Assembly: GCA_017525235.1 (NCBI GenBank)
Contig: JAFXTC010000042.1
Location: forward strand, 1 to 39,890
Source: Bacteroidaceae bacterium
Lineage (GTDB): Bacteria > Bacteroidota > Bacteroidia > Bacteroidales > Bacteroidaceae
DNA length: 39,890 bases
Direction: 5' to 3'
Of the stretch, positions 7,027 to 18,526 are shown in pieces. A model generated the notes under the pieces. It searched no databases. It worked only from the letters and a program-made list of their open reading frames with translations, and was not told the DNA's origin. A program made the translations under genes and the position numbers. Within the stretch, counting starts at the first letter, position 1; each line of letters opens with the position of its first letter.

Positions 7027-7509
7027 ATGAGACACAAATTACTTATTTCCTTGTTTGCCCTGCTTGCCTGCATGGATGTGTTGGCACAGAACAATGCTAC
7101 GCAGCGGCTTGTGTTGTGGCAGAAGTCGGGGGAGAAAATATATTTCGACCTGACCGACGAACCTAAGACGACCTTTGAGAACGGTCAACTTGTCATCAAG
7201 ACCTCGAAGACCACAGTATTTTATCTGCTTGAGAACGTGCTGCGCTATACCTACGAGGGCGAGATACCAATTGTGGATGGATTGAAACTGAATCCGGGAG
7301 AAATGCGTTTCATGCAAGGAAAGGACAACATGTCGTTCGACGGACTGGCAGACGGCACCATTATAGAGGTGTTCTCGCTTGACGGCAAGAAACTCCAAAG
7401 TCAGACTGCTCGTGGCGGCCAACGCACGGTAGTCTCTTTGTCCAGTCAACCTGTTGGCACTTACGTCGTGAAAGTTGGAGATGCAACCTATAAATTCCTG
7501 AAGCGATGA
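7027..7509 (+). CDS. Small secreted protein with type IX-like C-terminal domain
   Basis: 160 residues from ATG 7027 (an in-frame ATG at 7015 would add MINV). I chose 7027 because it opens a clean signal peptide ending VLAQ. The body (about 22-85) has RLVLWQKSGEKIYFDL and a TTVFYLLENVLRYTYE segment; the last 70 residues follow the sorting-domain pattern (EVFSLDGKKL, then VGTYVVKVGDATYKFLKR). I recognise it as a type of short protein common in Prevotella, but its role is unknown. Its stop overlaps the start of the next gene by four bases (ATGA), so the two are translationally coupled and may work together at the cell surface. Confidence 0.85.
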   Translation: MRHKLLISLFALLACMDVLAQNNATQRLVLWQKSGEKIYFDLTDEPKTTFENGQLVIKTSKTTVFYLLENVLRYTYEGEIPIVDGLKLNPGEMRFMQGKDNMSFDGLADGTIIEVFSLDGKKLQSQTARGGQRTVVSLSSQPVGTYVVKVGDATYKFLKR

Positions 7510-9719
7510 GACAGACGATACTAAACAAGAGTTTGCGTCGCAGTTGGCGCATCCTTTTCCTGCTGGCAACGTTCAATGTTTTGTGCTCAATGTTCAATGA
7601 ACTGCGGGCTCAAGAGGCTTTCTACATCTACCGCAACGACGGGGATTTCAACGGTTTCTTTTTCGACGAGATAGTGCGAATGAGCTGCTCAAAGGTCGAC
7701 CTCGACAATGTTGAGTGCGACACCTATGTGGTGCAGGAGATCGAGACCAAGGATAGCCTCTACCGCATCCCGCTCTGTGTCATCGATAGCATCGGCTTCC
7801 AGCAACCGGACATTATTCTCAACGAGGACTTTTATGAAGTGAACGGGTATGGTAGTCCCGTCCAAACAAACTGGCAAGGCTGTTACTTTACAGACGATGA
7901 AGGTTATACCCTATGTTGGGCCGTCTCAGAGAGAAGCCAGCTACCCAAGCCTGGAATGGTTATTTATCTCCCCAGTTGGGAAGATGCGGATGCCGGTTAT
8001 GGAAGCCGCCGACATTTTGATGACTCTCCCTTCGTGGGAAAAGTAAAACGGGTATATCAAGAGGTTCCCAATGACTATGAGTCTGGGTGGTGGATTGTAG
8101 AATGCGAACCCGTAACAGACTTGAAGGAGATTTTTGAACAATTCATCAGCGTAGAACAAATTGGAACAGATAATAGCGGAGAGGCATACTGTCGTATTGC
8201 TGGTTCGAACAAGATTAAGAAGCGTTTTAAGGTAAGCGGACAAGCAGATCTTTCCCTGGTATCTTTAAACCTGTCTCTCCCTGTGAAATTCTACGAGGAC
8301 AATTTTGAAGGTGGATTATCCGTAGACCTCTCTCTATCTATCACTGCAAACGCACTCTATAAAATTGAGCGTGACGACTGGTATATCAAAGTATCTTTTG
8401 CTGAAGACGCTGAAGTAGGAGCCACTCTTTCCGCCGTAGGCAAGTTAGAGGATGTTTTGTCCTGGGAACTTGGAGGAATGCCTTTCTACTTCCCTTCGTT
8501 CTTACCAATCATGGAAGTAAGGCCAGGACCTGGCGTATTCTTAAAAACGACAGGTGACATGAGCCTAAAAGTAACCACCCCAAAATTAGCCCTGCATGGA
8601 AGGCAAAGCGTCAGCATTGGCAGTAATGGAGTGAAGGGTAGTAAGAATTTCTATACAGGCAGTCAAGATGATGACAATGGATGGAGTGTCGAATTAGCAC
8701 TTAACGGCTCTGCACAGACAGGTGTACACATGCCCTTCAAAATAGAGACTAACAGATGGTTCAAGAAGATTGGATGGTGCAGTACAGGTGTGGACATCTA
8801 TGCAGGTCCTAAACTCGAAGCGCACTTCACGATTGATCCTGTAGCATTAGCTGGTGGCGATGCTTATGGAACATTCGGTGGCACGCAAGTAAAGCTGACA
8901 CCAAAAGACTTTGTGATAGAGGGTAATGCCAACTTCTCCGTTGCAGGAAAAAAAGAGACGAAATATAAAATCTTTGAGGGGGAGGCTGGTTTTGGTGCTG
9001 TTACCATGCGGCTATTCCCTTTATTCAATCCGACAACCTGTGATGAAGTGATATACGGAAAGACCGAATCTGGACTATGGGATGATCGATTTGTCTATTT
9101 TTCACATCCGGAAGTGGATGCCACCATCTATCCTCAAGGCTCATGCGTGGGTTGGCTACTTGGCGTGGCTGTATATAATGGCGAAAAGAAGTTAATCGAG
9201 TATAATTACATTCACGATAAAGGCAACTATAGCCTTTGGAACCCATGGACAGAGGCCAAGTTAAGGGTTAGGCTTTTGGATGGCAATTATACCGTCTGTC
9301 CCATCATCTACTGTTTCGGCTATCATGTCCCGGCATGGAGTGCTGCCAAGATAGTTACAGCAGATAGGCCTTTGGAACTTAAGGCTAAAGTCGCTGAAGG
9401 CACGTCAAGCGAAATTCCTCCAGAAGGAGAAATGTATGTGGACTATGTTCTTAACAAGGACGACAAAATATTCATCAATGCTGAAATAGAAAAAGCAGAT
9501 GCCGGATTCATTCCAGAACTCATATCACGTGAGCCTATGCCTGGCGAAGATCCTAATGCCGAGGAATACTTCGAGCGTGCGACTTTCCACTATAAACTCA
9601 CCGATACATTCTATAGTAATCAATGGGTCAATCCCGCTTGTTTTATTGCAAAAACATACCGAACTAAGCCGGAAGTAAAAGAGCGAACCGCAAAAAATTA
9701 TTTTATCCATATACATTAA
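7506..9719 (+). CDS. Large secreted protein of unknown function
   Basis: 737 residues. The N-terminal 36 residues form a signal peptide of unusual make-up (basic n-region, then a hydrophobic stretch ending ELRAQ). Residues about 37-100 show two similar halves (FFFDEIVRMSCSKVDLDN and IPLCVIDSIGFQQPDI), a surface-protein start related in style to the N-terminus of the 864-residue protein at 1147-3741. The rest is Gly/Asp/Tyr-rich and mostly beta; I see no enzyme motif and no clear sorting domain. It begins inside the stop codon of the preceding gene (ATGA overlap). Part of the signal peptide (about residues 22-33, FNVLCSMFN) is encoded by a heptanucleotide array. Function unknown. Confidence 0.85.
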   Translation: MRQTILNKSLRRSWRILFLLATFNVLCSMFNELRAQEAFYIYRNDGDFNGFFFDEIVRMSCSKVDLDNVECDTYVVQEIETKDSLYRIPLCVIDSIGFQQPDIILNEDFYEVNGYGSPVQTNWQGCYFTDDEGYTLCWAVSERSQLPKPGMVIYLPSWEDADAGYGSRRHFDDSPFVGKVKRVYQEVPNDYESGWWIVECEPVTDLKEIFEQFISVEQIGTDNSGEAYCRIAGSNKIKKRFKVSGQADLSLVSLNLSLPVKFYEDNFEGGLSVDLSLSITANALYKIERDDWYIKVSFAEDAEVGATLSAVGKLEDVLSWELGGMPFYFPSFLPIMEVRPGPGVFLKTTGDMSLKVTTPKLALHGRQSVSIGSNGVKGSKNFYTGSQDDDNGWSVELALNGSAQTGVHMPFKIETNRWFKKIGWCSTGVDIYAGPKLEAHFTIDPVALAGGDAYGTFGGTQVKLTPKDFVIEGNANFSVAGKKETKYKIFEGEAGFGAVTMRLFPLFNPTTCDEVIYGKTESGLWDDRFVYFSHPEVDATIYPQGSCVGWLLGVAVYNGEKKLIEYNYIHDKGNYSLWNPWTEAKLRVRLLDGNYTVCPIIYCFGYHVPAWSAAKIVTADRPLELKAKVAEGTSSEIPPEGEMYVDYVLNKDDKIFINAEIEKADAGFIPELISREPMPGEDPNAEEYFERATFHYKLTDTFYSNQWVNPACFIAKTYRTKPEVKERTAKNYFIHIH
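7568..7602 (+). repeat. Heptanucleotide array inside a signal-peptide coding region
   Basis: Five 7-nt units: AACGTTC, AATGTTT, TGTGCTC, AATGTTC, AATGAAC. The same unit family (AATGTTC) forms the end of the aminopeptidase P gene at 11587-11618. Here it encodes the FNVLCSMFN part of the hydrophobic core. Confidence 0.75.
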
Positions 9720-12241: not shown

Positions 12242-13414
12242 ATGAGAAAAATTACATTCCTTAGCCTGATGCTGTGCCTATTGGCAAGCTGTGCGCTGAC
12301 TGGCTGCATCCGTTGCAGCTATCATCAAGAGAGGAAAACCACCCACACTACAACCACCAGTTGGACTTGGGCATCGTGGGACAACCCGTTACCCATTAAG
12401 TTTGGAGACCCCTTCCTGCTGCGTGCCAATGGTAAATATTATATGTATGGTACATCTCTGGAGGATGGCTTTGAGGCTTATGTAAGCGACAGCTTGAGCA
12501 ACTGGGAACCTTGCGGTAAGGTTTATCAGGGAGGTGGCAAGGATCAGTGGAATGTAAACTGCTTCTGGGCACCTGAAGTGTACGAGCGCAATGGCAAATA
12601 CTATATGTTCTTCAGCGCCAACTACAAAGAGAATCCCACCAACGAGGGCGAAAACTTCAAGATTGGTGTAGCTGTGAGCGATTCACCCACAGGTCCTTTC
12701 GAGGATCTCTATGACCGCCCCATCTTTAATCCCGAATATCCCATTATCGATGCCAATGTGTATTTCGATAATAATACAGGCAAATGCTACCTGTACTTCA
12801 GCCGTTGCTGCTACAAGCACAGCGTGGAGAGCGAGATTGCCGACAGCCTTAAAGCCGCTGGTGTCTATGACAACATAGAAGAAAGCTGGGTATATGGTGT
12901 GGAGATGAAGCCCGACTTCAGCGGTGTGATAGGTGAACCCAAGTTGTTGCTTTGCCCTCCCAAGAAGCTGAACGATGCTCAGGCAGAATGGGAAAGCCGT
13001 AGTGCCACACACAAAGAGGTGAACCGCCGATGGACAGAAGGAAGCTATATCTTCCGTGAGGGGGATACATATTATATAATGTATAGTGCCAACCATTATG
13101 GTGGCGAATACTATGCCGTAGGCTATGCTACCAGCAAGAACCCGCTGGGCCCCTTCAAGAAAGCAGCCAATAATCCCGTTCTGCAGAAAAGTGGAAACGT
13201 TTTGGGAACAGGTCATTGCATGGTGATTCTTATGCCCGACGGTAGCCGCTGCTGTGTATATCACGGTCGTATGAGCGACAACCCTAATGAACGTGTAGTA
13301 CTGATTGACCCCTTGAAAATCGATGAGGATGGCGTACTTCGCGTGGAAGGTCCTTCTACAGGCCATCACTGGATTGGAGGAAGCGAAACGACAACAGAAA
13401 CCATAACAGAATAA
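12242..13414 (+). CDS. Lipoprotein glycoside hydrolase, family 43
   Basis: 390 residues from ATG 12242; the frame stays open upstream, but only this ATG opens a lipoprotein signal (LLASC with Cys17, or LTGC with Cys22). Predicted to be lipidated and on the inner or outer membrane facing the periplasm or exterior. Five-bladed propeller signatures are visible, with the three GH43 acids: D56 in KFGDPFLL (base), D170 in PIIDANVYF (pKa modulator) and E266 in RRWTEGSYIF (acid). Typical activities are arabinofuranosidase or xylosidase; the exact linkage cannot be read from this. It is not beside a SusC/SusD pair, so it may be a housekeeping side-chain trimmer rather than part of a polysaccharide locus. 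Cys189-190 and other Cys residues are more numerous than usual. Confidence 0.9.
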   Translation: MRKITFLSLMLCLLASCALTGCIRCSYHQERKTTHTTTTSWTWASWDNPLPIKFGDPFLLRANGKYYMYGTSLEDGFEAYVSDSLSNWEPCGKVYQGGGKDQWNVNCFWAPEVYERNGKYYMFFSANYKENPTNEGENFKIGVAVSDSPTGPFEDLYDRPIFNPEYPIIDANVYFDNNTGKCYLYFSRCCYKHSVESEIADSLKAAGVYDNIEESWVYGVEMKPDFSGVIGEPKLLLCPPKKLNDAQAEWESRSATHKEVNRRWTEGSYIFREGDTYYIMYSANHYGGEYYAVGYATSKNPLGPFKKAANNPVLQKSGNVLGTGHCMVILMPDGSRCCVYHGRMSDNPNERVVLIDPLKIDEDGVLRVEGPSTGHHWIGGSETTTETITE

Positions 13415-13431
13415 CGATAACGAAAACGAAA
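13414..13431 (+). repeat. Hexanucleotide array before metY
   Basis: ACGATA, ACGAAA, ACGAAA; period 6. It starts in the last base of the GH43 stop codon and ends 7 nt before the metY ATG. The same unit occurs at 6788-6811 and 6879-6890. Confidence 0.75.
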
Positions 13432-13438
13432 ATAAAGG

Positions 13439-14719
13439 ATGAAAAGAAACTTAGAGACTATCTGCATTCACGGCGGATGGAAGCCAACAAAGGGTGAACC
13501 TCAGCAGTTGCCCATCTATCAGAGTACAACATTCAAATATGATACCAGCGAGCAGATGGCCCGTTTGTTCGACCTGAAGGACAGCGGTTATTTCTATACG
13601 CGTCTGGCCAATCCTACCAACGATGCTGTTGCCAAGAAGATTGCAGCTCTCGAAGGTGGTGTGGGTGCGATGCTCACCTCAAGCGGACAGGCTGCCAACT
13701 TCTACGCCGTGTTCAACATCTGTCAGGCTGGTGACCATTTCATCACTTCCAACAGCATCTATGGCGGTACGTATAACCTCTTTGGTGTAACGATGAAGAA
13801 ACTCGGTATCGAATGCACATTCATCGACCCCGACTGGGACGACGAACGCATCGAGAAGGAGTTCCGCCCCAACACCAAGTGTTTCTTTGGCGAAACCATC
13901 AGCAACCCTGGCGGCAACGTATTCGATATTGAACGTTTTGCAAAGATGGCTCACAAGCATGGTGTACCCCTGATTGTGGATAACACCTTTGCTACGCCTA
14001 TCAACTGTCGTCCTTTTGAATGGGGTTGCGACATTGTTACCCACAGTACCACCAAGTATATGGACGGACATGCCACTCAGGTCGGTGGCTGTGTGGTAGA
14101 TAGCGGCAACTTCGACTGGGATGCGTATGCTGACAAGTTCCCAGGTCTGACTACTCCTGATGAGAGCTATCACGGGCTGACCTACACCAAGGCGTTTGGT
14201 AAGATGGCTTACATGACCAAGCTCGTTGCTCAGTTGATGCGCGACTTGGGCAGCATCCCCGGCCCTCAGAATTCCTTCTTGCTGAATCTGGGTTTGGAAA
14301 CCCTTCACCTGCGTATGCGTCAGCACTGTACCAATGCACAGAAGGTTGCAGAATGGTTGGAGAAGAATCCCAAGGTGGGATGGGTAAACTACTGCGGTCT
14401 GCCAGGCAACAAATACTACGAGTTGGGACAGAAATATCTGCCTAACGGTTCATGCGGTGTGATTGCCTTCGGACTGAAGGGAAGTCGTGAGGAAGCCATC
14501 AAGTTCATGGACAACCTCGACTTCATCTCTATTGTTACCCACGTGGCCGATGCACGTACCTGTGTACTGCATCCTGCCAGTCATACACATCGTCAGTTGA
14601 GCGACGAACAACTGCGTGAAGCTGGCGTGGCTCCTGACTTGGTACGTCTCTCCGTAGGTATTGAGAACGTAGAAGATATCATAGCCGACTTGCAGCAGGC
14701 TATGGACAAGATGGACTAA
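13439..14719 (+). CDS. metY: O-acetylhomoserine sulfhydrylase (PLP, Cys/Met metabolism family)
   Basis: 426 residues, the usual length. Forms homocysteine from O-acetylhomoserine and sulfide for methionine synthesis; cytoplasmic homotetramer with PLP. The PLP lysine is K206 in HSTTKYMDGH, the cofactor-stacking YTRLANPTND (53-62) and the SSGQAA loop (81-86) are intact, and the C-terminal RLSVGIENVEDI is typical. The length and the ICIHGGW opening favour metY over metB/metC-type lyases, although a methionine gamma-lyase cannot be fully excluded. It lies between the GH43 gene and the 5-alpha-reductase homologue with short gaps (24 and 19 nt), so it shares their transcript. Confidence 0.92.
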   Translation: MKRNLETICIHGGWKPTKGEPQQLPIYQSTTFKYDTSEQMARLFDLKDSGYFYTRLANPTNDAVAKKIAALEGGVGAMLTSSGQAANFYAVFNICQAGDHFITSNSIYGGTYNLFGVTMKKLGIECTFIDPDWDDERIEKEFRPNTKCFFGETISNPGGNVFDIERFAKMAHKHGVPLIVDNTFATPINCRPFEWGCDIVTHSTTKYMDGHATQVGGCVVDSGNFDWDAYADKFPGLTTPDESYHGLTYTKAFGKMAYMTKLVAQLMRDLGSIPGPQNSFLLNLGLETLHLRMRQHCTNAQKVAEWLEKNPKVGWVNYCGLPGNKYYELGQKYLPNGSCGVIAFGLKGSREEAIKFMDNLDFISIVTHVADARTCVLHPASHTHRQLSDEQLREAGVAPDLVRLSVGIENVEDIIADLQQAMDKMD

Positions 14720-14738
14720 AAAGCATCAGAAAAGATAC

Positions 14739-15509
14739 ATGATGACAGAAGAAGTATTTAACTACCTACTTGCAGGTATGGTGGTCTTGGGATTGATTGT
14801 CTTTATAAGCCTATATTTTATTACCGCGGGCTACGGACAGTTTCACACCAAACAATGGGGATTGAGCATTAACAACAAGGTAGGCTGGGTACTGATGGAG
14901 GCTCCTGCCTTTCTGACGATGTTGGTTATTTGGTACACAAGCGGCTGTCAGACTGCTGCACCTCAGATAGTGTTGTTGGGTTTGTTCTTGCTGCACTACT
15001 TCCAGCGCAGCTTCATCTTCCCCTTCCTAATGTCAGGCCATAGCAAGATGCCTGTTACCATCATGCTGTCAGGCGTAACATTCAATGTTATCAATGGCAT
15101 CATGCAAGGAGGCGGACTCTACTGGTTCCCGCAAGAGGCATACCAAGAGGGTTGGAATTACTTTGCAAGCGGAATTGCCATTGTAGGATTCATCGTCTTC
15201 TTTATAGGAATGGGTATCAACCTGCACTCCGACCACGTAATCCGCAACCTGCGCAAACCAGGCGATACCAAGCACTATCTGCCCAAAGGTGGCATGTACA
15301 ACTTTGTCACAAGTGCTAACTATTTCGGTGAACTGTTAGAATGGACGGGCTTCGCTATCATAGCCGGTTCTCCTGCAGCGTGGGTATTTGTCTGGTGGAC
15401 AGCAGCCAATCTGGTACCGCGTGCTCATGCCATACATAAAAAATATCGTGCCGAATTTGGAAATGAGGCAGTAGGAAACAGAAAGAGAATAATACCGTTT
15501 ATTTATTAA
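14739..15509 (+). CDS. Steroid 5-alpha-reductase family membrane protein
   Basis: 256 residues with about seven hydrophobic segments: an integral membrane enzyme. It matches the eukaryotic SRD5A family closely at the NADPH-binding part: LHSDHVIRNLRKPGDT (162-177), GGMYNFVTSANYFGE (184-198), EW at 201-202 and the C-terminal RIIPFIY. The two residues that hold the substrate 3-oxo group in human SRD5A2 (Glu57, Tyr91) appear conserved as E54 (LMEAPAF) and Y87 (LHYFQR). The expected reaction is NADPH-dependent reduction of a 3-oxo-delta4 steroid to the 5-alpha product. Homologues in gut Bacteroidales have been reported to act on 3-oxo-delta4-lithocholic acid. An OYE-type reductase and an SDR follow, as in those clusters. 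The substrate here is inferred; other enones or polyprenoid-like lipids are possible. Confidence 0.9.
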   Translation: MMTEEVFNYLLAGMVVLGLIVFISLYFITAGYGQFHTKQWGLSINNKVGWVLMEAPAFLTMLVIWYTSGCQTAAPQIVLLGLFLLHYFQRSFIFPFLMSGHSKMPVTIMLSGVTFNVINGIMQGGGLYWFPQEAYQEGWNYFASGIAIVGFIVFFIGMGINLHSDHVIRNLRKPGDTKHYLPKGGMYNFVTSANYFGELLEWTGFAIIAGSPAAWVFVWWTAANLVPRAHAIHKKYRAEFGNEAVGNRKRIIPFIY

Positions 15510-15514
15510 AGTTG

Positions 15515-15612
15515 GTTTACTGTTTACGGTTTACCGTTTACAGTAGTCAACAGATGGTTGAAAGAAGAAGTATTCTCGTTAGCTAATAAACAGTAAACGG
15601 TAAACGGTAAAC
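15515..15612 (+). repeat. Two opposed heptanucleotide arrays forming a long hairpin
   Basis: GTTTACT, GTTTACG, GTTTACC, GTTTACA (15515-15542) face AGTAAAC, GGTAAAC, GGTAAAC (15592-15612). The arms are inverted copies and can pair over about 25 bp (15515-15539 with 15588-15612) with three mismatches and a 48-nt loop. They fill the gap between the 5-alpha-reductase homologue and the OYE-family gene. There is no T-run, so a classic terminator is unlikely; an RNA processing or attenuation site is possible. Confidence 0.8.
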
Positions 15613-15626
15613 TAAAATTACAAGAT

Positions 15627-16862
15627 ATGGAAAACAAAATCTTTGAAGAGGCTCATATTGGTCCTCTAACCTTAAGAAACAGAACAATTAGAAGTGCAGC
15701 TTTTGAGAGTATGTGTCCAGGACACAAACCCAGCCAAATGCTGTATGACTATCATACAAGTGTTGCAAAAGGCGGCGTGGGAATGACCACCGTTGCATAC
15801 GCTGCTGTTACAGAAAGCGGACTAAGCTTCGACCGCCAGTTGTTTATGCGTCCTGAGATTGTCCCTGAATTGAGACATCTTACCGACGGCATACACGAGG
15901 CGGGAGCAGCTGCAGGTATTCAGTTGGGACACTGTGGCAATATGAGTCATAAGGAAATCTGCGGATGTATTCCTGTTGGTGCCTGCACAGGCTTTAATCT
16001 GTATAGTCCTACTATCGTTCGTGGCTTGCGTAAGGATGAGATTCCTGTTATGGCCAAGAAGTTTGGCGCTGCTGTGAATCTGGCACGCGAAGCAGGATTC
16101 GACAGTGTGGAGATTCACTGTGGACACGGTTATCTGATTGACCAGTTCCTGAACCCCTACTTCAACCATCGTCATGATGAGTTCGGCGGCTCATTGGAGA
16201 ATCGCATGCGCTTCATGAGCATGATAATTGAGGAGGTGATGAAAGCTGCTAAAGACGATATGGCTGTTATCTGTAAGATGAATATGCGCGATGGCCGGAA
16301 AAATGGTGTCTCTCTGGAAGAACACAGTATTCCCATTGCCAAGCGTCTGCAGGAGTTGGGCGTTCATGCTTTGGTGCTCAGTGGCGGTTTGGTAAGCTGT
16401 ACGCCTATGTATGTGATGCGCGGCGAAATGCCCATTCAGGCGCTGACTCATTATATGGAAAAGCCTTGGCTTAAATACAGCGTTCGCGCCTGTGGAAAAT
16501 GGATGATTCCTACCGTTAACTATCAGGAGGCTTACTTCCTGGAGGATGCACTGAAGTTCCGCGAGGCTTTGCCTGACATGAAACTCATATATGTTGGAGG
16601 CTTGGTTGCCGGCGATAAGATTAACGAGGTATTGGGGCACGGATTCGAGGCTGTTCAGATGGCACGCAGTCTGCTCAATGAACCTGACTTTGTGAACAAA
16701 CTGAAGGAAGATCCTCATCACCGTTGCGGCTGTAAGCACAGTAACTATTGCATCGGTCGTATGTACACATTGGAGATGGCTTGCCATCAGCACTTGGAAG
16801 AGGAACTTCCCGAGAAGATTGTGAAGGAAATTGCAAGAATAGAAAAAGAACAAAACGCATGA
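15627..16862 (+). CDS. Old Yellow Enzyme-family flavin ene-reductase (NADH:flavin oxidoreductase)
   Basis: 411 residues: one TIM-barrel FMN domain with the family signature HCGHGYLIDQFLNP (164-177), then N180, H181-R182, FGGSLENRMRF (186-196) and the phosphate-binding VGGLVAGDK / GFEAVQMAR region (323-347). The C-terminal FAD/NAD domains of 2,4-dienoyl-CoA reductase are absent. A Cys group ends the protein (C367, C369, C375, C386; spacing x1, x5, x10) where relatives such as BaiCD/BaiH carry the Fe-S ligands CxxCxxC...C, so the cluster, if bound, has altered spacing. The expected role is reduction of a C=C bond conjugated to a carbonyl; in reported Bacteroidales clusters a protein of this type is the 5-beta-reductase. 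It overlaps the next gene by four bases. Cytoplasmic. Confidence 0.88.
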   Translation: MENKIFEEAHIGPLTLRNRTIRSAAFESMCPGHKPSQMLYDYHTSVAKGGVGMTTVAYAAVTESGLSFDRQLFMRPEIVPELRHLTDGIHEAGAAAGIQLGHCGNMSHKEICGCIPVGACTGFNLYSPTIVRGLRKDEIPVMAKKFGAAVNLAREAGFDSVEIHCGHGYLIDQFLNPYFNHRHDEFGGSLENRMRFMSMIIEEVMKAAKDDMAVICKMNMRDGRKNGVSLEEHSIPIAKRLQELGVHALVLSGGLVSCTPMYVMRGEMPIQALTHYMEKPWLKYSVRACGKWMIPTVNYQEAYFLEDALKFREALPDMKLIYVGGLVAGDKINEVLGHGFEAVQMARSLLNEPDFVNKLKEDPHHRCGCKHSNYCIGRMYTLEMACHQHLEEELPEKIVKEIARIEKEQNA

Positions 16863-17707
16863 AGAAGGTTGCAATAGTAACTGGCGCCAACGGTGGCATG
16901 GGCTATGAGGAGGCAAAGGAAGCCTTGCTGCAAGGTTATCATACCGTAATGGCCTGCTACTGTCCCAGTCGGTCGGAAGCCCGACGCCAGCAAATGATAG
17001 AGGAAACAGGATGTACTGATGTGGAAATAATGGCTCTGGATTTATCTAATCTGCAGAGCGTTCGCGATTTTGCAGACCAGATAAAAGCAAAGTTCGGCCA
17101 CGTGGATATTCTAATGAACAATGCAGGAACCTTGGAGACCGGACTTCATACAACAGTTGACGGATTGGAACGAACAGTTGCCGTGAACTACGTTGGGCCT
17201 TATCTGCTGACTCGCCTGCTCGTTCCCTTAATGGGCAAGGGAAGCCGAATTGTCAATATGTCTTCCTGTTCCTACATCTTAGGCAAACTGCAATTCCCCG
17301 AATTCTTCACTAAAGGCAGAAAAGGATTTTGGCAGCGAATTCTAGTATATGGCAACAGCAAACTGGCCTTCACACTTTTCTCATTAGATTTAGCTAAGCG
17401 CATAAAGGGACAAGGCATTACCGTAAATGCTGCCGACCCTGGCGTAGTGAATACCAAGATAATCCATCTGCAAAACAGTTTGCTTGATCCCCTTGCAGAC
17501 CTTTTCTTCCGTCCACTGATTCGCACGCCCCGACAAGGAGCAGATACTGCTATTCATCTGATGTTTGACAAAGAGAAGGAAGGACAAACCGGAACATTCT
17601 GTCGGTCGAACAAGATTGTAAATCTTGGAGACAAATATGTACATCACAAACAAATGCAGATGTTGTGGGAGGAGACAGAAAAAATTGTGCAACCTTTCCT
17701 TGCATAA
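16859..17707 (+). CDS. Short-chain dehydrogenase/reductase (hydroxysteroid dehydrogenase-like)
   Basis: 282 residues from ATG 16859, which lies in the stop of the OYE-family gene (ATGA overlap). The frame is open further upstream, but this start places the Rossmann motif TGANGGMG at residues 8-15, as expected. NNAG (87-90), N110, S135/S136 (NMSS) and YGNSK (Y164, K168) complete the classical SDR catalytic set. The overall pattern resembles retinol dehydrogenase-like SDRs. Context (coupled to an ene-reductase and close to a 5-alpha-reductase) suggests it interconverts a 3-oxo and a 3-hydroxyl group on the same substrate, the 3-HSDH role in reported bile-acid clusters; cofactor and stereochemistry cannot be read with confidence. 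Confidence 0.88.
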   Translation: MKKVAIVTGANGGMGYEEAKEALLQGYHTVMACYCPSRSEARRQQMIEETGCTDVEIMALDLSNLQSVRDFADQIKAKFGHVDILMNNAGTLETGLHTTVDGLERTVAVNYVGPYLLTRLLVPLMGKGSRIVNMSSCSYILGKLQFPEFFTKGRKGFWQRILVYGNSKLAFTLFSLDLAKRIKGQGITVNAADPGVVNTKIIHLQNSLLDPLADLFFRPLIRTPRQGADTAIHLMFDKEKEGQTGTFCRSNKIVNLGDKYVHHKQMQMLWEETEKIVQPFLA

Positions 17708-17733
17708 ATCTTTGAAAAAAATGCTTAAAAACT

Positions 17734-17764
17734 TTTGTGGCAAATGATAATTGCCTTATATTTG
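17734..17764 (+). promoter_or_regulatory. Promoter of the RecQ-C / manA / lptF / ribBA run
   Basis: TTTG (17734-17737), 19 bp, TATATTTG (17757-17764). Leader of about 23 nt to ATG 17792. Between the boxes GGCAA (17739-17743) and TTGCC (17751-17755) form a short dyad that could be an operator. Confidence 0.75.
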
Positions 17765-17791
17765 CACCCCGAAAACAATGGGTAACAAAAT

Positions 17792-18526
17792 ATGGACGCA
17801 AAAGAATCACTTGTAAAAATCATAAAAGCTCTCTTGGAAATAGGACAGTCTGTTCCACGCCAAATTCTAATCGACTATCTGGCAGGAAAAGAAAGTCGGG
17901 AGATAGAGGATTTGGGCTTATATGACAATGAGACATACGGCATTGGTGATGCACATGACGAAGACTATTGGACAACCATCATAGACAAAGCTTTTGAGTG
18001 CGGATTCCTGAAACGGAAACCTTCAAAGAGCGATAAGCTTACTGCATCAAAAGAAGGAAAGAAATTTGCCAAGAAACCTACTCCCTTCATGATAGATGAA
18101 GAAGAGGAAGCAACTGATGAGAACATAAGCCATCTTCAGGATTTGGAAGATTTAATCATTCAGATACCCAATAACGAGACGGACAGCTCGGAACAAAAGG
18201 CTTCTGCCAAGACAAAGCAGCAAATAAAGTTGATACATGCCATTGACAGAAAGATAGCCTTGGATGATTTTGCTGAAAGCGAAAGTATATCTTTTGACGA
18301 GGTATTGGAAGAGCTGGAGAAACTCATTCGCCAGGGATTGAATGTAGATATTACATACTTTACCAACGAAGTTCTGGGTGAAGAATGCGTGCAGGAACTG
18401 GTAGATTTTATGAACGGCATGAAAAAGTTCAGCATGGAGAAAGTTATCAGCGAATATGGCGATGTGTACAGCGAGGAGGAACTTCGTCTGGCCTACATTG
18501 TATATCTCATACAACAAAAGAAATAA
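17792..18526 (+). CDS. Stand-alone RecQ C-terminal-like protein (RQC plus HTH, no helicase)
   Basis: 244 residues, no signal peptide. Residues 1-110 resemble the RQC winged helix of Bacteroidetes RecQ: the I-L-I-D-Y-L-A-G-K-x-S-x-E-I segment, then YGIGDAHDEDYW, a AFECGFLKR strand, and SKEGKKFAKKP. An acidic linker (about 106-145) follows, and residues 146-244 match the RecQ C-terminal helix-turn-helix (AIDRKIALDDFAES, NVDITYFTNEVLGEE, YSEEELRLAYIVYLI). The helicase core, zinc-binding domain and HRDC are absent, and no sequence for them lies nearby, so this is a separate small gene rather than a broken recQ. It probably binds DNA (G4, forks or hairpins are RQC targets). It has its own promoter and precedes manA by 22 nt. 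The family assignment rests on remembered sequence patterns. Confidence 0.72.
   Translation: MDAKESLVKIIKALLEIGQSVPRQILIDYLAGKESREIEDLGLYDNETYGIGDAHDEDYWTTIIDKAFECGFLKRKPSKSDKLTASKEGKKFAKKPTPFMIDEEEEATDENISHLQDLEDLIIQIPNNETDSSEQKASAKTKQQIKLIHAIDRKIALDDFAESESISFDEVLEELEKLIRQGLNVDITYFTNEVLGEECVQELVDFMNGMKKFSMEKVISEYGDVYSEEELRLAYIVYLIQQKK

Follow-up and report, generated by a model that had tools for sequence, protein, structure and literature searches.

The window analyzed here, the whole 39,890-nucleotide stretch of contig JAFXTC010000042.1 (assembly GCA_017525235.1) from a member of the Bacteroidaceae, carries three adjacent genes on the forward strand that encode a membrane steroid 5-alpha-reductase homologue (5AR), an Old Yellow Enzyme (OYE)-family ene-reductase, and a short-chain dehydrogenase/reductase (SDR). 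Quite probably, this trio belongs to the known Bacteroidota cassette of 5AR, 5-beta-reductase (5BR), and 3-beta-hydroxysteroid dehydrogenase (3-beta-HSDH), which acts on 3-oxo steroids by inverting their A/B ring junction. Because the three adjacent genes match a gene set described in gut Bacteroidales, the locus looks like a further carrier of a described pathway, not a new kind of system. The initial annotation had read these genes as a possible ring-A steroid or bile acid module, and orthology supports that reading; the coordinates, strand, and frames that it gave for the three intact genes were all correct, as was the overlap of four bases (ATGA, 16859-16862) shared by the OYE and SDR reading frames.

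Clusters combining these enzymes, to which that annotation had appealed, are indeed on record. Reviews describe one in P. merdae and Bacteroides, documented with lithocholic acid (LCA) derivatives (PMC10382948, PMC11271093, PMC10672800). The published route runs from 3-oxoLCA to 3-oxo-delta4-LCA (5-beta-reductase), on to 3-oxo-alloLCA (5-alpha-reductase), and finally to isoalloLCA (3-beta-HSDH) (PMC10672800, PMC11271093, PMC9645264). In P. merdae, a predicted 3-beta-HSDH and an NADH:flavin oxidoreductase are clustered with the 5AR, whose disruption abolishes alloLCA derivatives (PMC10382948). In the window, likewise, a 5AR, an NADH:flavin oxidoreductase-type OYE, and an SDR lie side by side. 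The primary papers on the isoalloLCA cluster are reportedly those of Sato (2021) and Li (2021).

We imagine that the OYE would convert 5-beta 3-oxo steroids into 3-oxo-delta4 steroids and back; using NADPH and the residue pair E54/Y87, the membrane 5AR would then carry out an alpha-face reduction of the delta4 bond, giving a flat 3-oxo-5-alpha steroid, and the SDR would reduce the 3-oxo group, probably to a 3-beta-hydroxyl (the iso-allo product). From the described cluster, we infer in which direction the reactions run, what the C3 stereochemistry is, and that bile acids would be the main substrate.

That the trio would stay together in relatives was a further expectation, and it does so in the family, named-loci, and Parabacteroides-type sets. 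The family sample comprised 151 genomes, with limits of E<=0.001 for the 5AR, E<=1e-80 for the OYE, and E<=1e-25 for the SDR. The 5AR was matched in 22 (17 full-length, 5 weak and partial), the OYE in 19, and the SDR in 18. All 17 genomes with a full-length 5AR also have the OYE, adjoining the 5AR in 16; G010 is the exception, its 5AR lying on a separate contig from the OYE-SDR pair. A contiguous trio with an SDR identity of at least 52% was found in 13 of these 17 genomes; in G070 and G011, the sole SDR match is distant and follows another SDR, and G030 gives none at E<=1e-25. Counted over the whole sample, a full-length 5AR and the OYE occur together in 17 genomes, OYE only in 2, full-length 5AR only in 0, and neither in 132 (Fisher p 1.4e-20, with related genomes not independent). 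At E<=1e-60, the OYE is matched in 58/344 genomes of the order, although the weakest 10 or so of these matches (36-44% identity) probably represent another subfamily. The 5AR is present in 67/139 genomes of the window's genus (72/139 are without a match, many of the genomes being incomplete) and in 4/296 of a phylum-wide draw, the window counted; outside the order, 3/295 other genomes of that draw have a 5AR relative, at 36-41% identity.

The named loci are the best 80 of 585 relatives, picked by OYE alignment; because they were ranked by likeness to a Parabacteroides-like OYE, the list leans to the Parabacteroides side. The order 5AR, OYE, window-type (P0003-type) SDR is kept in 64 of the 80, of which 48 are plain trios, 14 have an extra SDR before the last gene, and two (L099 and L151) have one match in two pieces. 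The other 16 consist of OYE-extra SDR (7), OYE-SDR (4), 5AR-OYE (3), OYE alone (1), and 5AR-OYE-extra SDR (1). Three loci that open with the OYE (L083, L084, and L120) start within 0.3 kb of a contig end and therefore cannot show a 5AR. We also compared 38 genomes of a genus that we take to be Parabacteroides because the OYE of one of them (G254) shares 95% identity with the P. massiliensis L082 OYE. The 5AR is present in 20/38, with the OYE adjoining in 18/20 and the order 5AR-OYE-SDR in 17/20; this SDR is window-like (P0003-like) and partly seen, where the stretches end. As for comparison with steroid-active clades, the same order with a window-like SDR stands in what is taken to be the genus of P. 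merdae.

The window shares with the Bacteroidota isoalloLCA cluster the three enzyme types, and the order 5AR-OYE-SDR is that seen in the putative Parabacteroides genus. It differs in that its carrier belongs to a different genus, in that it lacks the extra SDR seen in 15/80 named loci, and in that its 5AR has Ser, not Met, at the place of human R114. In the literature searched, which left subscription papers mostly outside and so gives no proof of absence, we found no statement of this cluster in Prevotella.

Several irregular loci were also seen. Seven loci titled Parabacteroides (L075-L081) have the OYE with another SDR and no adjoining 5AR, and the P. distasonis record L183 has the same arrangement, with a resistance-nodulation-division (RND) efflux set immediately upstream. 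Possible broken or split copies include G585:C223 (5AR match as two overlapping pieces), G596 (full and partial 5AR on two contigs), L095 (a stop within the SDR match), and L099 (5AR match split in two), with assembly error possible in each.

The 5AR passes the curated cut-off of Pfam Steroid_dh (E 6.1e-38, 130.6 bits against 22.6) and matches the solved structures of PbSRD5A (7c83, E 1e-47) and human SRD5A2 (7bw1, E 6.5e-40). Its E54 and Y87 occupy the alignment positions of human E57 and Y91, so that the substrate Glu and Tyr are conserved, as initially claimed; the "near-identity" of LHSDHVIRNLRKPGDT to eukaryotic SRD5A was overstated, 9/16 positions being identical to human SRD5A2. In the human enzyme, the E57/Y91 pair holds the carbonyl group at C3, and NADPH delivers hydride to the alpha face at C5 (PMC7815742, PMC7591894). 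Seven of seven NADPH residues (human N160, D164, R171, N193, E197, R227, and Y235) are kept in the window 5AR, as N161, D165, R172, N194, E198, R228, and Y236. By human numbers, E57, Y91, F118, D164, R171, N193, E197, R227, and Y235 are invariant in 67/67 named 5ARs, and N160 is kept in 66/67. The 5ARs of L011, L015 (G095, G138), and L149 have His at the N160 place in otherwise intact cassettes, which may alter their activity. Overall, the window 5AR resembles the SRD5A family (7c83, 7bw1) in length, in the E57/Y91 pair, and in seven of the eight named NADPH residues; it departs from it in reading M-E-Y instead of Q-E-Y and in having Ile at H231.

These two departures are among the points that weigh against a steroid cassette. 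The eighth NADPH residue, H231, is I232 in the window, and is Ile in 62/67 and Leu in 5/67 named 5ARs. The change is not decisive, because human SRD5A2 tolerates H231A and stays active (PMC7815742). Within the steroid-ketone motif, M53 stands for human Q56, with the E and Y kept, and the human enzyme requires the Gln: Q56A and Q56L are inactive (PMC7815742). Met occupies this place in 67/67 named 5ARs read and in 3/3 5ARs from outside the order. Plant DET2 carries Met there as well. On the same side of the balance, the OYE lacks an adjoining 5AR in 12/80 named loci, and two of the 19 OYE-bearing family genomes (G050 and G088) have no 5AR. No bile salt hydrolase match was found in the window genome, which is 72.7% complete (control genomes were positive in 4/14); unconjugated substrate would therefore come from other bacteria. 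The remaining points concern the OYE. Its top NCBIfam match, BaiCD (NF041087), reaches 175.7 bits against a cut-off of 825 and covers residues 3-258 only; around the Tyr, it has neither the steroid hormone nor the bile acid residue set of PMC12238238; and one review calls the 5BR role hypothesized (PMC10382948).

The OYE matches Pfam Oxidored_FMN (E 1.5e-49, residues 4-249), and its closest solved relatives are YqjM-like ene-reductases. With the BaiCD/FadH-type Fe-S flavoenzymes, it shares the N-terminal flavin mononucleotide (FMN) barrel, and all 45 members of the OYE alignment give partial matches to the BaiCD and mycofactocin OYE models. It also has three invariant C-terminal Cys and an invariant His as candidate Fe-S ligands: H164, H167, Y169, C369, C375, and C386 are identical in 79/79 relatives extracted, as is H371, and the Cys trio with the His could hold an Fe-S cluster. 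FadH itself has four Cys ligands. Unlike those enzymes, the OYE is 411 residues long against a 642-position model and has no second domain. With the gut Firmicutes steroid hormone 5-beta-reductases (ci2350, PMC12238238), it shares the OYE superfamily and the catalytic Tyr. It differs from them at the N166/S171 places, where G168 and Q173 flank Y169 in 79/79 relatives, a correspondence taken from the shared G-Y-L motif rather than from a structural alignment; hormone-type enzymes have Asn/Ser at these places, and bile-type enzymes have other residues (PMC12238238). Membership of the OYE in BaiCD or in the Firmicutes 5-beta-reductases was ruled out by score and residues.

Could the OYE, then, accompany the 5AR as a general ene-reductase, not as a 5-beta-reductase/dehydrogenase, leaving steroid work to the 5AR and SDR only? 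Its single domain, its YqjM-like relatives, its want of either published 5-beta-reductase signature, and the genomes that have it without a 5AR are all in keeping with that idea. The tree data point the other way. Across 59 of the 80 named loci plus the window, gene-tree distances correlate with r of 0.70 (5AR-OYE), 0.56 (5AR-SDR), and 0.80 (OYE-SDR), against permutation maxima of 0.22-0.25, with species relatedness contributing; thus, the OYE tree tracks the other two, and its mean tree distance is the lowest of the three (0.66 versus 1.37 and 1.81). Since reviews also give the 5BR role to this type of gene (PMC9645264, PMC10382948), we regard a general ene-reductase as very unlikely and a 5BR within the steroid cassette as the better account.

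The SDR matches Pfam adh_short (E 5.2e-32), and the classical motif residues T8, G9, G12, and G15 (T-G-x-x-G-x-x-G), S136, Y164, and K168 are present, as they are in 64/64 relatives extracted. It is the final cassette gene in relatives. Given the same gene order in the putative Parabacteroides genus, we infer that it corresponds to the 3-beta-HSDH of the published cluster; gene order and the reviews suggest 3-beta stereochemistry. All three genes are under purifying selection: in comparisons of the window with eight relatives of the same genus, the ratio of nonsynonymous to synonymous substitution rates (dN/dS) is 0.018-0.074 in the 20/24 gene pairs that were computable, values that are rough because dS is mostly >1.

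That leaves the question of which steroid is used. In human SRD5A2, R114 forms a hydrogen bond with the finasteride tail group (PMC7591894); the window 5AR has S111 there. Ser is found at this place in 11/13 same-genus relatives, whereas Met prevails elsewhere: in 16/16 of the family set (including four same-genus genomes), in 64/68 named 5ARs, and in 18/19 of the Parabacteroides set. One can therefore envision the same chemistry on another substrate, with host hormones or plant sterols, not bile acids, as the main substrates of the cassette in this clade. The missing bile salt hydrolase match would fit, as would the report that PbSRD5A responded mainly to progesterone (PMC7815742). So would the sources of the two nearest named OYEs among the best 80 of 585, both from metagenome-assembled genomes of herbivore guts (L146, horse feces; L149, dairy cattle cecum), where plant sterols would be expected to abound. 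Against this, it is bile acids on which the Bacteroidota cluster has been reported to act, and the OYE, which would also need to bind the molecule in question, retains 79-93% identity across 13 same-genus relatives. Nor is Met at the R114 place a mark of bile acids, because SRD5A1 has Met there too (PMC7591894). We consider such a change of substrate unlikely. A more specific version, in which the change from Met to Ser at the residue facing the side-chain end re-tuned the cassette of the window clade with ring-A chemistry unchanged, so that these hindgut bacteria convert steroids bearing a different side chain (a plant sterol or hormone) into flat 5-alpha steroids that known human gut strains do not form, seems to us decidedly unlikely. 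A steroid cassette of the known kind, which may work mainly on bile acids, is the reading we retain.

A housekeeping lipid role, for example in reducing an enone or enoyl lipid of the cell itself, had initially been left open. The 5AR does also match the enoyl-CoA reductase 22of (E 6.6e-07), and the trio sits among housekeeping genes. Its spread, however, is patchy, which weakens this explanation: a full-length 5AR is missing from 134/151 family genomes (17/151 have one), and the genus and phylum counts given above (67/139 and 4/296) are of the same kind, although many of the 72/139 genus genomes with no match are incomplete. In addition, the E and Y of the steroid-ketone motif are kept in every one of the 67 named 5ARs read. 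A study of chicken Bacteroidetes isolates speaks against patchiness, as it reports the 5AR gene in all but two Odoribacter isolates and P. distasonis; it also suggests that the gene serves bile or hormone modification (PMC6069880). The P. distasonis-titled locus L080, with the OYE and an extra SDR and no 5AR alongside, agrees with that report. On balance, a housekeeping role appears highly improbable next to steroid conversion.

If orthology holds, roughly half of the genomes sampled from the window's genus would encode the route, adding a carrier group. Reviews credit isoalloLCA and other flat bile acids related to it with promoting regulatory T cells and inhibiting Gram-positive pathogens (PMC10382948, PMC11271093). 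The M-E-Y motif and one-domain OYE raise mechanistic questions beyond the human and Firmicutes models.

Features of the cassette and its surroundings in the window
Feature	Position	Strand	Remarks
Membrane steroid 5-alpha-reductase homologue (5AR)	14739..15509	+	256 aa; Steroid_dh match
OYE-family FMN ene-reductase, putative steroid 5-beta-reductase/dehydrogenase (5BR)	15627..16862	+	411 aa; Oxidored_FMN match
Classical SDR, putative 3-beta-hydroxysteroid dehydrogenase	16859..17707	+	282 aa; adh_short match
5AR-OYE gap	15510..15626	+	Inverted dispersed repeat (GTAAACG-like units), can form long hairpin
Weak terminator-like stem 3' of SDR	17739..17755	+	Not above chance
metY-like Cys/Met pyridoxal phosphate enzyme, neighbor outside module	13439..14719	+	Cys_Met_Meta_PP 8.8e-127
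RQC/RecQ-like helix-turn-helix protein, neighbor outside module	17792..18526	+	Domain match

The gap between the 5AR and OYE genes folds into a hairpin, with a z-score of -6.12 for 15505-15630 and -7.05 for the gap by itself; over ten folded gaps, the scores ranged from -7.05 to +0.97. The 13-mer GTAAACGGTAAAC from this gap has 18 copies in the genome, compared to 1 for the control. The gap is a hot spot for repeats: the window has an inverted dispersed repeat of the GTAAACG type, L199-L202 and L208 have palindromes of the GGGGAG type, and L204-L206 have tandem repeats; in L207, L209, and L210, it is merely 10-24 bases long. Because the gap of relatives holds different repeats or none, the hairpin as a conserved intra-operon regulator is unsupported. 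Terminator-like sites in 13300-18000 showed no excess (3 observed versus 3.6 expected in shuffles).

Transfer by plasmid was also considered as an origin. The closest OYE matches among plasmid records are one from Phocaeicola massiliensis and one from P. distasonis, and only two records match the 5AR. The plasmid-labeled record NZ_OY725754.1 has cassette genes together with pth and L25 genes and looks chromosomal; another plasmid-labeled record, OY726067.1, is unannotated and carries cassette genes. Given the few plasmid matches and the chromosome-like P. distasonis record (pth, L25 gene), a mobile-element origin by plasmid transfer is unsupported.

The initial annotation had remarked that the trio lies outside a dedicated island. 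This is usual for the cassette, as flanking genes vary between most of the loci compared and are shared within close groups, for example, the window with G095 and G138. The metY-like gene stops 20 bases 5' of the 5AR, and a fragment like it is present in 6/8 relatives examined; upstream of it lie GH43, hexapeptide protein, and peptidase M24 genes. Farther away, at 7506-9719, is an open reading frame of 737 residues, the last 561 of which have no Pfam match at E<=0.001 in a scan that covered 8034-9716 only. Downstream, the cassette is followed by genes for the RQC-domain protein, mannose-6-phosphate isomerase, LptF/G, and RibBA. The RQC protein comes after the cassette in 8/13 same-genus stretches, the remaining five of which stop about 0.7 kb or less past the SDR.

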